Shown here: in pieces, positions 35,505 through 40,201 of the stretch
Layout: each line of letters begins with the position of its first letter
Numbering within the stretch: position 1 is the first letter of the stretch
From: Chloroflexota bacterium
Lineage (GTDB): Bacteria > Chloroflexota > Anaerolineae > Anaerolineales > Anaerolineaceae
Direction of reading: 5' to 3'
Length of the DNA stretch: 64,000 nt
Assembly (NCBI GenBank): GCA_016887485.1
Contig: CP069394.1
Span: 868,001-932,000 of the forward strand
Notes under the pieces: generated by a model
The model's input: the letters and a program-made list of their open reading frames with translations, nothing else
Database searches by the model: none
Told to the model about the DNA's origin: nothing
Translations under genes and position numbers: made by a program

Positions 35505-35731
35505 CCATGGTTGTTTGCGCGCCACGCGTCCAGAAATGGGGCCGCCATCACAGGGGCCTCTTGGGGCTTGGCACTCAGTTGTGTTCGGTATGGGAATCAA
35601 CTACTCTTGTAGTGGGAGGCATCCGCCGATCTCTCGATTTTCCGACTGGCAGCGACCAGCCGTTAACCCCGGTTTGCACTGGGGAACCTCCTTCCTCGTC
35701 ACCAACTTAATCTTCAAGCTGGCCAGGCGCT
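35505..35731 (-). ncRNA. glmS ribozyme: glmS ribozyme/riboswitch in the glmS leader
   Basis: In the leader of glmS the minus strand shows, in order, the elements of the glucosamine-6-phosphate-activated self-cleaving ribozyme: AAGCGCC with the cleavage site expected between A35731 and G35730; a P2-like hairpin (CCAGCTT and AAGTTGG, about 35722-35703); GACGAGG (35700-35694); GGAGG (35691-35687); and GGCGGATGCCTCC (35627-35615), whose CCTCC pairs with the GGAGG. Compared with the Bacillus ribozyme, the stretch between GGAGG and GGCGG is expanded by about 45 nt and holds extra hairpins. The 3' boundary is approximate; the P4-like region runs toward the start codon. Confidence 0.9.
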
Positions 35732-35781
35732 TCTTATTCCCATGTCAATGTTCTACGTTCACCTCAATTAAGGTGCCCCCC

Positions 35782-35787
35782 ATTATA
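35782..35787 (-). promoter_or_regulatory. -10 box for glmS
   Basis: A perfect TATAAT on the minus strand directly after the stop codon of the yqeC-mocA fusion. Transcription would start near 35775, about 45 nt before the ribozyme cleavage site. No good -35 hexamer is seen (TTACCG at a 16-nt distance is the best). Confidence 0.55.
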
Positions 35788-35789
35788 CC

Positions 35790-37175
35790 TTAATCACCGG
35801 AATCGGTAAGGAAGTCGTGAAAGCCTGTTCCGCGTTCCGAGTCAGGGAAATAGGCTCGTTTCAGCCGTTCATAGCCTTCCTCGTCATCCACATCCAAGGC
35901 GTCACGCTCATCTGACCACTCCAGCCAGGCTACCTCAAACTGACTGAATACCGCCCTGCCACCCTGATCCCCCTGAATGGCCTCCAGAGCATCAAATGCT
36001 TCCCTGGCAAACAGCACTGGGTTCGCCCGTCTTCCAGAAATCCTTGGGGCTGCAATGGGCAGGAGGTTGGCATAATAGGCCTCCACCACCGATCGGATCA
36101 ATGTCGGCGAAACCTGGGGCTGATCACTCATCAAAAAGACCGCCGCCTGACAGTCCTCCGGTAATGCCTGAACGCCCTTTTTCAGTGATGTCGATTGGCC
36201 TTTCTGCCAATCCGGATTATGCACAATAGTCACAGGTAATTCGGTCAGCGAAGCCCTCACCGCGTCGGATTCCGCCCCAGTGATCACGACCAGCGGTGTC
36301 AGGCCCGCATCTAAGGCGTTTTGGGCCACTTTGGCGATAAATGGTTGTCCCTGCCAGCCCAGCAACTGCTTGGGCCGTCCCAGGCGCTTGCTGCCACCTG
36401 CTGCCAGGATCACGCCTGCAACCTTCGAGTGAACACTAAAAACCGTCCCATCTTTACCTGGCTGTTGCAAAGAACCAATCACCACCTGTGAATAACAATC
36501 CCTCAATTCACTGGCGATCCGTCCAGCTTGGGACTGCAATTTGGGTGTATCTGCCTGATTTAGAAATAAGGTCCGCTTGGCTTTGGGTGGGATGCCTTTC
36601 AAGCCACCCTCCACACTCCTCAGCGTCCTAATCAGCGCTTCACTGGTAATTCGGTAGCCCAGTTTAAAGCCGCTTATCGCGGCAAAACGTTCCGGCCGGT
36701 GAACGGTGGTCTCATCCAGTGGCTGGCCCAAACCACCTAACCCAGCCACCACAATCACCTGATCCACCCACTCAGGAACGGCTGGTTCGTGACCTGCGGG
36801 GGCTTTCAGGTTCCTCTGACGGGCCCCATCCGCTTCGATCAACAAGGTTATCCTGTTTTTCCGACAATAATCGCTGAGCGTCTCCAATTGGCGCGGTTCC
36901 AGTGCCACCAGCCTGTCATCCGAACTGACTGGGCCTGTCACAAGGAGCGAATGGGTGTTTTCAATGAAATCTTGAGATAAATCCTCGCCAGGTTGGAGGA
37001 TAAGATGTCTTTCCACCAATGGGGATTGCCAGGCACCCAAATGGGTTGTGGTCGTCAGGATCACCGGGCCCGGATAGCACTCTGCCAGGGCAAACATCAG
37101 GCTGGTTTTCCCGCCCGCACCGGTTAATGCGATGCACTCACCTTGCCGGAGTCTAAATACCCTTTGGAGGTCCAA
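35790..37175 (-). CDS. fusion of YqeC-like protein and MocA-like molybdenum cofactor nucleotidyltransferase
   Basis: Residues about 1-235 are a YqeC-type P-loop protein (GECIALTGAGGKTSLMFALAE Walker A; VILTTTTHLG; LLIEADGARQRNLKAPAGHEPA), a marker of selenium-dependent molybdenum hydroxylases. Residues about 250-450 are a MobA-like nucleotidyltransferase (GVILAAGGSKRLGRPKQLLGWQG; FLMSDQPQVSP), like MocA, which makes molybdopterin cytosine dinucleotide from CTP. The start is a TTG at 37175, with AAGGA overlapping the stop region of yqeB 6 nt upstream. The two activities are usually separate genes. It is the last gene of the molybdenum hydroxylase/F420 array; the glmS promoter follows. Confidence 0.87.
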   Translation of the reverse strand: MDLQRVFRLRQGECIALTGAGGKTSLMFALAECYPGPVILTTTTHLGAWQSPLVERHLILQPGEDLSQDFIENTHSLLVTGPVSSDDRLVALEPRQLETLSDYCRKNRITLLIEADGARQRNLKAPAGHEPAVPEWVDQVIVVAGLGGLGQPLDETTVHRPERFAAISGFKLGYRITSEALIRTLRSVEGGLKGIPPKAKRTLFLNQADTPKLQSQAGRIASELRDCYSQVVIGSLQQPGKDGTVFSVHSKVAGVILAAGGSKRLGRPKQLLGWQGQPFIAKVAQNALDAGLTPLVVITGAESDAVRASLTELPVTIVHNPDWQKGQSTSLKKGVQALPEDCQAAVFLMSDQPQVSPTLIRSVVEAYYANLLPIAAPRISGRRANPVLFAREAFDALEAIQGDQGGRAVFSQFEVAWLEWSDERDALDVDDEEGYERLKRAYFPDSERGTGFHDFLTDSGD

Positions 37176-37181
37176 ACCGGA

Positions 37182-37994
37182 TTATCCTTCCCAGAGCTGC
37201 TGCCGAATCTTCGGTCGCGTTAACAATGCTTCCAACACACCGCCGCCAATTGACAGCGATTTCTCCGAAGCATACCAGCAGCGAAAGATCTCTGGCCGCG
37301 GATCCACATCCCCCACCTTCATACCCTCCCGCACCTGCACGCCATTGTGAATCAAACCACGTACGACGCCATCAAAGGGCGCAACTTCCGCCTGACCGTT
37401 CACCAACAAGAGCGGATCGCCTTTCTTGACGGTATGCCCAATCGGCACCAAGGTCTCCACAATGCCAGTTGCCGGGGCATGTAGCACCCGTTCAGCAGCA
37501 TATTCCTGCACTTTGCCAGGAATGCCGGTATCCGGTTCCGGGCTGCCTTCCCAATAGACCCGGCCGAGGAAGTGCCCGCGGTTGGTCTCCACTGCGGCGT
37601 GGCAGTTCTTGCCAACGGTGAAGCCCGGACCCAGGCCGATCACCATATCGGCGATGGAAAGATCAATCTCAGTGGCTTTCTTGCGCATCCGCGCATCCAC
37701 CACCGCAACAGGATAAAATTTGTTCAGCAGGTTCAAGTCCGGGTCAATAATCACCGGAATTTCCTCGTTTTGCCAGCAGGCCCCCATCTGGTCAGCAGAT
37801 TGGATCAACCGACCGGTCACTTCTTCAATGGTGGCATCACCATCATAAACCGCCTGGGCAAAAGCCACCGAACGGCGGACAGCCAATGGTTGCGAGCGTT
37901 CCACAACGACCACATGGATCCCAGAACGATGTAACCGGAGAGCGACACCGCTGGCCAGGTCACCCCCACCCCAGACCAGGACAAAGGGGATCAT
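37182..37994 (-). CDS. yqeB: YqeB-family selenium-dependent molybdenum hydroxylase maturation protein
   Basis: Rossmann-fold protein of 270 residues (family EF2563), one of the genes whose presence marks organisms using selenium as a labile cofactor in molybdenum hydroxylases. The N terminus VLVWGGGDLASGVALRLHRSG is a nucleotide-binding glycine motif. It also has DPDLNLLNKFYPVAVVDARMRKK and the GPGFTVGKNCHAAVETNRGH motif with a conserved cysteine-histidine pair. It overlaps the molybdenum subunit gene by 4 nt (ATGA) and precedes the YqeC-MocA fusion, so the two maturation factors are translated together. Confidence 0.9.
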   Translation of the reverse strand: MIPFVLVWGGGDLASGVALRLHRSGIHVVVVERSQPLAVRRSVAFAQAVYDGDATIEEVTGRLIQSADQMGACWQNEEIPVIIDPDLNLLNKFYPVAVVDARMRKKATEIDLSIADMVIGLGPGFTVGKNCHAAVETNRGHFLGRVYWEGSPEPDTGIPGKVQEYAAERVLHAPATGIVETLVPIGHTVKKGDPLLLVNGQAEVAPFDGVVRGLIHNGVQVREGMKVGDVDPRPEIFRCWYASEKSLSIGGGVLEALLTRPKIRQQLWEG

Positions 37995-40201
37995 TTTATC
38001 TTCCCCAATTTCCGCAGGACTCGCTCTGGGGTCAGCGGGAATTCATCAAACCAGACGCCGGTCGCATCGTGCATGGCCGCCATAATAGCTGGTGCCAGCG
38101 GCAAATAGGGCATTTCTGACATACCCCGAGCACCATAAGGTCCATTGGGTTCAGCAAATTCAAGAATCACAGATTCCACTTCGTCAGGAATATCCAGCAC
38201 CGTGGGAATCAGGTAATTGGAGAGCATGTTGGTTAAAACCTTGCCATCCTTTTGGATGAAGTTCTCCAAGATGGAATAACCGGCGGCCTGGATTAGCGCA
38301 CCTTCAATTTGCCCTTCCACCTGCATGGGATTGATCGCCTTGCCGACGTCATCCGCACAGAGGATCTTTAACAAGTGAATTTCACCTGTCTCCGTATCCA
38401 CTTCCAATTCAACATTCTCCGCCACATAACCGTAGGACACGTTCGGATAGCACTCGCCTGTCTCTTTATTAAATGGTTGAGTAGGCGGCGCTAAATATTT
38501 ATATTCAACCGTTAGAGGCCGTTCATCCGTTTCCTGCCATTTCTTCAATGCCAATTTGGCAGCGCCAAGTACGGAGTTCCCACCCATGAAAGTCATCCGA
38601 GAAGCTGAGGAGCTTCCAGAATTCCCTGATGAGCTGGTATCTGAGGCAATTAGTTCAACTTTCTCAAGTGGTAAATTCAATTCTTCCGCAACAATTTGGC
38701 GGAAAATGGAATGAGCACCTTGACCAACATCCGCGCCGGCGTGATGCAGGACGGCTTTTTCTATTTCTTTGTCACCATAAAGGTCAATGATAGCTGCGCT
38801 GTTTTCTTGATAACCAAATGAAAATCCGACATTCTTAAAGCTGCAGGCAATTCCGCGTCCCCGTTTGATAACACCATCTCCGGGTATTGGCCCTGGCGCT
38901 TGCCAGCCCTTGTCCGTCTCAGTCCACCCGGATCGCTCTGCACAGACAGCCATGACCGGTTTAATTGTGACGCCCTTAGGTGGTTTTGTATTGACGGATA
39001 GGATCGAGTCATCATCGATCAAATTTCGCATCCGCAATTCAACCGGATCCATATTGAGGGCTTCCGCCAGGCGATTCATCTGCATTTCTGCTTCAAAGGC
39101 ACCCTGAGGGCCGCCAAATCCACGGAAAGCGCCACCGGGTACATTATTGGTATAAACAGACCGAGAATCGACATGAACGTTAGGAATCTCGTAAGGCCCG
39201 GAGCATACGATAGTCGCATTACCCTGAACCTTGTTGGTCGTATACATATAGGCGCCGCCATCGGCCAGGATATCGACTTTTGCTGCGAGGACCTTACCTT
39301 CCTTCGTCGCACCCCATTTCGCCTTCAGTTTATAAGCATGGCGTTTATGGTGCCCAATGATCGATTCTTCCCGCGTCCAGATGATCTTAACCGGTCGATC
39401 AATTCCTCGTTCATGCAACCGCATCGTAGCCAAACCCAGAATGATCTGCACAGACATATCCTCACGGCCGCCAAAAGCGCCGCCGATCGCGGGATAGATC
39501 ACCCGAATTTTTTCTTCAGGCAGTGTGAGTGAATGCGCAATTTGCTCCTGATCCTCATGGGTCCATTGACCAGCGACAACCACAGTGATCCGGCCTTCCT
39601 CGTCAATATAGGAAATACCGGCTTCAGGTTGAAGATAAGCATGTTCCTGCATCGGGGTATGATATTCCCCCTCTACAATCACATCGCATTTCGTAAAAGC
39701 CTCTTCCACATCGCCGTGCCGAATTTTGTAATGTAACATCAGATTGGTTCCCTTTTCAGGGTGTACCAGGATCTCATCAGTTATCGACGCTTCTGTTTCC
39801 GTCACCAGTGGGAGGTCTTCATAATCCACTTTGATTTTCTTCCGGGCCGCCTCAGCAATTTCATTGCTTTCAGCTACAACCAAAGCAACCTGATCACCCA
39901 CAAACCGGACATGATCCGCGAATGGTATCGAGGATCCCGGTCCACAGAGCACAGGTTGATCGGAGATGCCCAAGCCATATTCATTCACCGGGACATCCTT
40001 GGCCGTGAAGACAGCGATAACACCTCCCATGGCCTCCGCTGCTGAAGTGTCAATCGATTTGACAATCGCGTGTGGGCGCTCGGCAAAGAGCACCTTCATA
40101 TATACCTGGTCGGGCATATTGAAATCACCGGGATAGAGCGCGGCGCCGGTGGCTTTGTCTTTTACATCAAATCGTATAACAGATTTTCCGACTGTCGCCA
40201 T
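37991..40201 (-). CDS. xanthine dehydrogenase-family molybdopterin-binding subunit
   Basis: The 736-residue large subunit of a molybdenum hydroxylase that inserts a water-derived oxygen into a C-H bond of an N-heterocycle or aldehyde. It has the N-terminal a/b hammerhead domain (residues about 10-125) and the molybdopterin-binding domains: GGAFGGREDMSVQ, GGAFRGFGGPQGAFEAE, and GARGMSEMPYLPLAPA near the C terminus, whose glutamate corresponds to the catalytic base. It lacks the AYRCSFR loop of carbon monoxide dehydrogenase. The partner FAD/iron-sulfur protein is encoded 9 nt upstream. Selenium dependence is inferred from the adjacent yqeB and yqeC genes. Confidence 0.93.
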   Translation of the reverse strand: MATVGKSVIRFDVKDKATGAALYPGDFNMPDQVYMKVLFAERPHAIVKSIDTSAAEAMGGVIAVFTAKDVPVNEYGLGISDQPVLCGPGSSIPFADHVRFVGDQVALVVAESNEIAEAARKKIKVDYEDLPLVTETEASITDEILVHPEKGTNLMLHYKIRHGDVEEAFTKCDVIVEGEYHTPMQEHAYLQPEAGISYIDEEGRITVVVAGQWTHEDQEQIAHSLTLPEEKIRVIYPAIGGAFGGREDMSVQIILGLATMRLHERGIDRPVKIIWTREESIIGHHKRHAYKLKAKWGATKEGKVLAAKVDILADGGAYMYTTNKVQGNATIVCSGPYEIPNVHVDSRSVYTNNVPGGAFRGFGGPQGAFEAEMQMNRLAEALNMDPVELRMRNLIDDDSILSVNTKPPKGVTIKPVMAVCAERSGWTETDKGWQAPGPIPGDGVIKRGRGIACSFKNVGFSFGYQENSAAIIDLYGDKEIEKAVLHHAGADVGQGAHSIFRQIVAEELNLPLEKVELIASDTSSSGNSGSSSASRMTFMGGNSVLGAAKLALKKWQETDERPLTVEYKYLAPPTQPFNKETGECYPNVSYGYVAENVELEVDTETGEIHLLKILCADDVGKAINPMQVEGQIEGALIQAAGYSILENFIQKDGKVLTNMLSNYLIPTVLDIPDEVESVILEFAEPNGPYGARGMSEMPYLPLAPAIMAAMHDATGVWFDEFPLTPERVLRKLGKIK

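Follow-up and report, generated by a model that had tools for sequence, protein, structure and literature searches.

The window, by which we mean the whole 64,000-nucleotide stretch analysed, carries on its minus strand a glmS gene whose leader raises two linked questions: whether a glmS ribozyme has here been rebuilt around an expanded internal region, and which genes such a remodelled RNA serves.

The leader of glmS

The original prediction had read the ordered core of a glmS ribozyme in this leader, and its motifs do lie on the minus strand where it had placed them: AGCGCC at 35731-35726, GACGAGG at 35700-35694, GGAGG at 35691-35687 and GGCGGATGCCTCC ending at 35615. All core bases at the cleavage site and the ligand pocket are present (A-1 G1 C2 G3, ACGAGG, AUCGA and GCGGAUG), and the sequence can form all five P2.2 pairs as well as three P2.1 pairs, giving a double pseudoknot with P2. 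The glmS open reading frame (ORF), the genome's one TIGR01135 match above the cut-off, lies directly downstream, as a leader of glmS requires. Judged from its letters, the element has the look of a genuine glmS ribozyme that has been remodelled, and membership of the glmS class is supported by the sequence, the pseudoknotted core, the place before glmS and covariation among relatives.

Covariance models gave a divided answer. RF00234, the glmS ribozyme model, was the best Rfam match to the leader (35742-35588) at 31.6 bits (E 1.3e-5, 651 nt searched), which is below its gathering score of 37, and no Rfam family reached its own gathering score in the window; the low score is probably explained by an insertion of 45 nt and the lack of a P4 domain. 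A covariance model of the clade (R2), built from an alignment (A4) of 22 leaders of glutamine synthetase genes (glnA) that included no glmS leader, matched 35731-35615 at 66.2 bits (E 7.2e-16) when run against the 64-kb window, where the runner-up place had an E value of 0.79. The original prediction was to be given up if no significant covariance-model match was found; it fails to reach threshold with the Rfam model and stands on the clade model. Single-sequence folding of 281 nt gave a structure no stabler than shuffled sequences (z -0.94; 34 of 200 shuffles as good), which says little since the glmS RNA is pseudoknotted, and we left it out of the evidence. The features below draw on A1, an alignment of 48 glmS-type leaders from the family; the search pattern that supplied its rows demands most of GACGAGG.

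35590-35743, minus strand: glmS ribozyme element, window copy, comprising the core and a 45-nt insertion between P2 and P2.1, without a P4 domain
35782-35787, minus strand: TATAAT, a probable -10 box judged from sequence, with a putative transcript start about 45 nt before the cleavage site
35736-35743, minus strand: 5' strand ATGGGAAT of an outer helix, here termed P0, upstream of the cleavage site
35730-35731, minus strand: predicted cleavage site between A-1 (35731) and G1 (35730), by homology to the glmS consensus
35724-35729, minus strand: P2.2 5' strand CGCCUG, bulged at the usual position 6; the PMC7125110 register (available in part) gives five Watson-Crick pairs
35702-35722, minus strand: P1 hairpin CCAGCUU/AAGUUGG, with changes on both sides in 6 of 7 pairs (48 relatives)
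35694-35700, minus strand: GACGAGG, catalytic core and P2.1 5' strand (CGA), invariant in A1
35687-35691, minus strand: P2 5' strand GGAGG, partner of 35619-35615; paired in 100% of cells, both-side changes in 2 of 5 pairs (A1)
35667-35684, minus strand: insertion hairpin 1, CCCCAGUGCAAACCGGGG, 7 of 7 pairs compensatory (A1)
35643-35662, minus strand: insertion hairpin 2, CGGCUGG...CCAGUCG, overlapping the end of UUAAC; 5 of 5 counted pairs compensatory (A1)
35634-35641, minus strand: AAAAUCGA, ligand-pocket strand (A42 U43 C44 G45) and P2.1 3' strand, invariant in A1
35623-35628, minus strand: P2.2 3' strand CGGCGG (C52 to G57), from sequence
35615-35619, minus strand: P2 3' strand CCUCC, from sequence and A1 pairing
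35600-35613, minus strand: short P3 hairpin, from sequence, without a P3.1/P4 domain after it
35590-35597, minus strand: P0 3' strand AUUCCCAU, directly after the short P3
33651-35492, minus strand: glmS, the controlled gene (TIGR01135, 786.5 bits; cut-off 418)
33628-33600: terminator-like hairpin after glmS, from a terminator scan

The internal expansion, which had been put at about 45 nt, measures exactly that: GGAGG and ATCGA are separated by 48 nt here and by 3 nt in an insertion-free relative (L340). Both hairpins proposed within it are borne out, the CCCC/GGGG one precisely at 35684-35667 and the CTGG/CCAG one as part of a longer, 7-bp stem at 35662-35643, and all 12 counted insertion pairs are compensatory in the 48 relatives; the expansion is genuine and forms structure. 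Over the whole named structure, 96.2% of cells in A1 are paired, compared with 76.6% in shuffled alignments and at most 46.2% with partners slid; both-side changes occur in 20 pairs, a number reached by 4 of 500 shuffles, while the other measures were reached by none. By helix, P2.1 and P2 are paired in 100% of cells and P2.2 in 89.6%, with pair 5-53 failing in 25 of 48 rows. The corresponding alignment of 43 glnA-type leaders (A2) has 95.9% of cells paired (83.9% shuffled, at most 47.6% slid) and both-side changes in 34 of 51 pairs, its weakest helix being P3.1 at 85.4%. These shuffle controls take no account of relatedness.

Two sequences of the region are invariant in A1, namely UAA between the hairpins and AAAAUCGA after them, and the insertions of both A1 and A2 keep the UAA and the following AAA together with covarying stems. 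UAA and GAA(AA), which precede and follow hairpin 2 respectively (A1/A2), resemble what we take to be a purine stack motif of the UAA/GAN type, and the element is perhaps a docking platform. We also considered the insertion as a substitute for P4; this is unsupported as it stands, the glnA copies carrying both. Insertions vary elsewhere: one glmS ribozyme (L365/L367) has its insertion hairpin 2 enlarged by about 180 nt of repeat-like sequence, and another from the Chloroflexota (L341) has a long insertion between AUCGA and AGCGG.

Two further traits of the window copy had gone unremarked in the original prediction. No P3.1/P4 domain is seen in it, and an outer helix, ATGGGAAT at 35743-35736 with ATTCCCAT at 35597-35590, encloses the cleavage site and closes the element. 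The mean P0 duplex energy across 89 distinct glmS-type leaders is -9.5 kcal/mol, against -6.6 kcal/mol with partners swapped; the signal is weak in 92 glnA-type leaders (-7.5 against -6.7 kcal/mol), with both-side changes in 3 of 4 pairs in A2.

Further upstream, several of the 15 glmS-type leaders inspected also have TATAAT at about this position; the list from a promoter consensus scan does not contain the box at 35782-35787. Around it (35760-35794) lies an inverted repeat, ATTAAGGT/ACCTTAAT, and after it a near-palindrome, CACCTTAATTGAGGTG; these repeats are possibly an operator or a 5' hairpin, and a genus relative (L028) has a different inverted repeat at the corresponding place. The neighbouring genes upstream of glmS (35790-40201) resemble selenium/molybdenum-cofactor maturation proteins, with YqeC- and MocA-like regions in one ORF and a YqeB, alongside a gene like a molybdenum hydroxylase subunit.

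Copies before nitrogen assimilation genes

RF00234 has two matches in this genome, the window copy and a second copy, not mentioned in the original prediction, that scores over the cut-off (41.2 bits; C1:2676337-2676555 minus, equivalent to L003:4338-4556 minus, genome G000). The gene immediately after it encodes a type I glutamine synthetase (TIGR00653, 538.9 bits), the only TIGR00653 match detected in the genome. With a sister of the window RNA standing before glutamine synthetase in this genome, a single RNA sensor may link the supply of sugar for the cell wall to the use of nitrogen.

The remodelled ribozyme is not peculiar to one genome, and related RNAs occur in other Chloroflexota. At E ≤0.1, RF00234 had matches in 113 of the 147 family genomes searched, and in 42 of these a match exceeded the cut-off. 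Among the matches listed, the 130 loci examined had glmS downstream in 67 cases, glnA in 62 and neither in 1; the distance from core to gene was 47-241 nt for glmS (median 108, 66 parsed loci) and 118-244 nt for glnA (median 177, 62 parsed loci). A motif scan of named genomes gave at least 119 loci, 58 with glnA and 34 with glmS within 2.6 kb and 27 with neither. Of the last, again among the matches listed, seven have glutamate synthase downstream by tblastn (L138, L143, L177, L189, L211, L229 and L243; in L138 behind two other ORFs), and the rest include three with an Ada-like first gene, three with a gene for a fused GTPase-SIS protein, one with a YvcK-like gene and one with a small ORF; 11 of the 27 have less than 430 nt left, and L246 is unassigned.

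For the wider phylum we used a covariance model built from both classes (R1), which is without P1, in our reading because the alignment shifts P1 by one base between the classes. At E 0.001 it matched 106 of 400 Chloroflexota genomes, and the 90 classified loci comprised 67 before glmS, 6 before glnA, 13 before an Ada-like/EamA operon (followed by glnA in 9), 1 before glutamate synthase and 3 before none of these. One match (L342, E 1.5e-5) was rejected as a false positive, being ordinary sequence in which the ordered ribozyme motifs were not seen. No query-recognised gene was found in the flanking DNA examined of L299 and L319, the latter running to the contig end. Loci of the family search, the motif scan and the R1 scan overlap in part, so that their counts are not independent; altogether, 242 of 250 loci could be parsed into 204 distinct cores, 92 of them before glnA, 89 before glmS, 7 before glutamate synthase and 16 before others, such as the GTPase-SIS gene, the YvcK-like gene or a small ORF.

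Several gene contexts were observed alongside these counts. One ribozyme stands before an operon of an Ada-like HTH-methyltransferase, an EamA transporter (YedA-like) and glnA in L195, L226, L230, L245, L292, L297, L307 and others, and in L211 one copy is followed by glutamate synthase, Ada-like and EamA genes. A 62.2-bit copy (L228:7042-7257) with G rather than A at base -1 lies about 190 nt before the YvcK-like gene, of a UDP-GlcNAc-binding protein family (CofD 110.8 bits; TIGR01826 103 bits, below the cut-off of 196, the gene being truncated by the locus end). Outside the phylum, 5 of 80 Bipolaricaulota genomes matched at E 1e-4, all five before the same GTPase-SIS gene; in genomes assigned to that phylum or titled as such, the insertion-bearing ribozyme precedes a fused GTPase-SIS protein with a MurQ-like SIS domain (L186, L204, L213, L355, L376-L379). 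Three genomes of genus g25 (Longilinea) carry the RNA ahead of a short acidic ORF (about 46 aa, with the ending ETIEILLxDxIATGG; L359, L368, L369, L370), possibly a small regulator; related small ORFs (L371-L375) gave no significant R1 match in the flanks examined. Many of the glnA-type leaders inspected share, some 12-25 nt ahead of the cleavage site, a stretch resembling ACAAYTGAATA, perhaps a promoter or part of the RNA.

The P2.2 bulge and its possible readings

The two classes differ in P2.2. The constancy of GCG, ACGAGG, C44, GCGG and G60 across the cores holds by construction, because the search pattern demands them. The pattern-free pocket bases, however, are nearly constant as well in the 181 glmS and glnA cores (A42 in 180, U43 in 180 and G45 in 181; the exceptions are L202 and L045). 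L030 and L054 were misparsed, the match being too short, which makes the single GCGGAAG glnA entry and two of the four G-1 entries (glmS and glnA) artefacts. In the numbering of PMC7125110 (available in part), P2.2 comprises C2-G56, G3-C55, C4-G54, C5-G53, a bulge at 6 and G7-C52, with G3-C55 and C4-G54 inferred by us from the neighbouring pairs. The window copy forms all five pairs, as do 37 of the 89 glmS cores (CGGCG); for the window sequence the bulge registers tie once G-U pairs are allowed. Another 41 glmS cores have A53 and base 5 bulged. Among glnA cores, 81 of 92 have GCGGCUG or GCGACUG with CAGCG, which leaves base 4 bulged and pairs base 5 with 54 and base 6 with 53, and a further 8 have the bulge at 5. 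The 43 aligned glnA leaders (A2) pair 99.5% of P2.2 cells in the bulge-4 register and 60.5% in the usual one. A P2.2 helix with one bulged base is thus present in the glnA copies, the usual position 6 not being kept, and we treat the bulge at 4 as the mark of a sub-class. The link between bulge position and gene is strong but not strict: two of the 89 glmS cores have bulge 4 (L176, L192), and two of the seven glutamate-synthase cores keep C4. One leader before glutamate synthase, L289, reads AGCGCATG.

Other differences accompany the bulge. Base 26 is G in 88 of 89 glmS cores and in 55 of 92 glnA cores. A P4 signature (GNRA loop, A-rich flanks), scored with a crude detector whose chance rate is 32 in 1,000, was found in 90 of 92 glnA, 4 of 7 glutamate-synthase and 8 of 89 glmS distinct cores. 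Loss of P4 is not universal in glmS leaders, the detector finding the domain in 7 of 22 leaders of family f2, in 5 of 7 from f58, in 0 of 14 from f23 and, for the rest of the class, in 6 of 11 (1 unparsed). RF00234 scored 8 of 14 glnA-linked loci over the cut-off at 38.6-53.1 bits (L001, L007, L008, L012, L016, L030, L042, L046), 6 of 14 under it (L104, L140, L230, L245, L292, L297) and none of 4 glutamate-synthase loci over it (L177, L189, L229, L289).

The weakest point of our whole account is whether the bulge-4 class is active. As far as the available part of PMC7125110 goes, conservation of the bulge at 6 is 97% or more, and the single change C4G severely impairs the Thermoanaerobacter tengcongensis core, so the bulge-4 class could be slow. 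It is conceivable, though in our judgement unlikely, that the move of the bulge has retuned the glnA/glutamate-synthase branch to a different trigger, either another nitrogen-status ligand or glucosamine-6-phosphate (GlcN6P) in another range; were this true, a self-cleaving ribozyme would be running nitrogen assimilation. We give less credence still to the more specific idea that this branch uses the glmS fold for another amine ligand (glutamine, say, or a different amino sugar phosphate), with changed specificity marked by the move of the bulge. A nitrogen ligand would suit a nitrogen regulon, and the relaxed base 26 accompanies the bulge shift, but the pocket bases are unchanged and the shift is not strictly gene-linked, as the exceptions above and the 41 glmS cores with bulge 5 attest.

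That RNAs of the glnA type have lost catalysis, whether as relics or as structural leaders for protein binding or translation control, strikes us as very unlikely. The damage done by C4G alone is what such a reading would lean on; set against it are the near-complete pairing of P2.2 in the bulge-4 register, the core kept across many genera and the finding, in the available part of PMC7125110, that A6C rescues C4A about 24-fold, which its authors read, from double mutants, as an inward shift of the bulge.

Two further readings are weaker again. It is highly improbable that the insertion is a mobile or repeat element in a permissive loop: the swollen hairpin 2 of L365/L367, with its repeat-like sequence, indicates that the loop tolerates inserts, yet UAA and the following AAA are kept, the stems covary in A1 and A2 and the insertion is common to glmS and glnA copies. 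That the window element is no working ribozyme, but a product of decay or of chance resemblance, is scarcely credible, for although its RF00234 score is sub-threshold, its fold z-score is poor and P4 is missing, it matches at 66.2 bits a model free of glmS leaders, shows compensatory changes throughout, the insertion included, and keeps its place before glmS in at least 67 family loci; moreover, a core construct lacking P3/P4 cleaves (PMC7125110, available in part).

Proposed mechanism and relation to known systems

On the observed basis of sequence, covariation-supported structure, kept core and gene context, we consider it probable that the window element is a GlcN6P-activated self-cleaving ribozyme on glmS and that a bulge-4 paralogue acts on nitrogen assimilation genes; cleavage, ligand, mRNA decay, regulatory logic and duplication are inferred, in the absence of cleavage or expression data. 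Accumulating GlcN6P would bind the preformed pocket, its amine serving as general acid, and the RNA would be cut between 35731 and 35730. The cut glmS mRNA would then be degraded, probably by RNase J, giving feedback on glmS; the genome encodes a TIGR00649 protein (571 bits), presumably of the RNase J family. Glutamine is the nitrogen donor of GlmS. Because the paralogue (bulge 4, with P3.1/P4) precedes glnA or the glnA operon and glutamate synthase, the same metabolite would probably also lower glutamine and glutamate synthesis, slowing nitrogen assimilation when amino-sugar supply is ample. The glmS limb corresponds to the known negative feedback of the glmS ribozyme on glmS (PMC11602151, available in part).

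As to origin, the two-hairpin insertion is common to glmS and glnA copies, from which we infer that a glmS ribozyme already bearing it was most likely duplicated to give the glnA copy. P4, as far as the detector can tell, comes and goes among glmS leaders. The insertion-bearing ribozyme of the Bipolaricaulota calls for transfer or an older origin.

The glmS ribozyme is described as placed in leaders of genes needed to make GlcN6P (review PMC6154101, available in part). In the present genomes this catalytic fold takes the form of a regulon, standing before glmS, glutamine synthetase, glutamate synthase, the GTPase-SIS protein and the YvcK-like protein, and it may offer a route by which Anaerolineae couple cell-wall sugar synthesis to nitrogen assimilation. 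We found no report of a glmS ribozyme before glnA or glutamate synthase in the open-access literature, a scope that leaves out the glmS survey of McCown (2011), and some of these loci may be listed automatically as glmS in Rfam. These RNAs are also natural tests of whether the P2.2 bulge can move, so far inferred from designed double mutants (PMC7125110, available in part), and of what stabilises a glmS ribozyme without P4.

Glutamine riboswitches, among them the downstream-peptide motif, are leaders linked to glutamine metabolism in other bacteria. The glnA RNA (RF01739), whose ligand is glutamine (PMC3766115, available in part), is likewise such a leader, but the Chloroflexota glnA leader has the glmS-ribozyme fold, unlike glutamine riboswitches, and Rfam models of the latter gave no match at gathering scores in 20 loci scanned.

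Closer to the window copy are seven Chloroflexota ribozymes outside its class (L340, L341, L343-L347), which share the phylum and a downstream glmS. They differ in having only a few nucleotides, instead of 48, between P2 and P2.1, six being without an insertion there and L341 having its own elsewhere, and they score 57.9-100.6 bits with RF00234, with a P4 signature in six of the seven. With the RF00234 ribozymes of Bacillus subtilis and T. tengcongensis the window element shares the A|GCG cleavage site, P1, P2, the P2.1/P2.2 double pseudoknot, the pocket bases and the place in the glmS leader, and the glnA class additionally shares P3, P3.1 and P4 with its GNRA loop and A-rich internal loop. 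Unlike them, it has two extra hairpins between P2 and P2.1 and the outer helix P0, and lacks P3.1/P4, a peripheral, stabilising domain (PMC11602151, available in part); the glnA class departs further in its P2.2 bulge at 4 instead of 6 and its place before nitrogen assimilation genes. In structure, the window ribozyme is a variant within a class already known.
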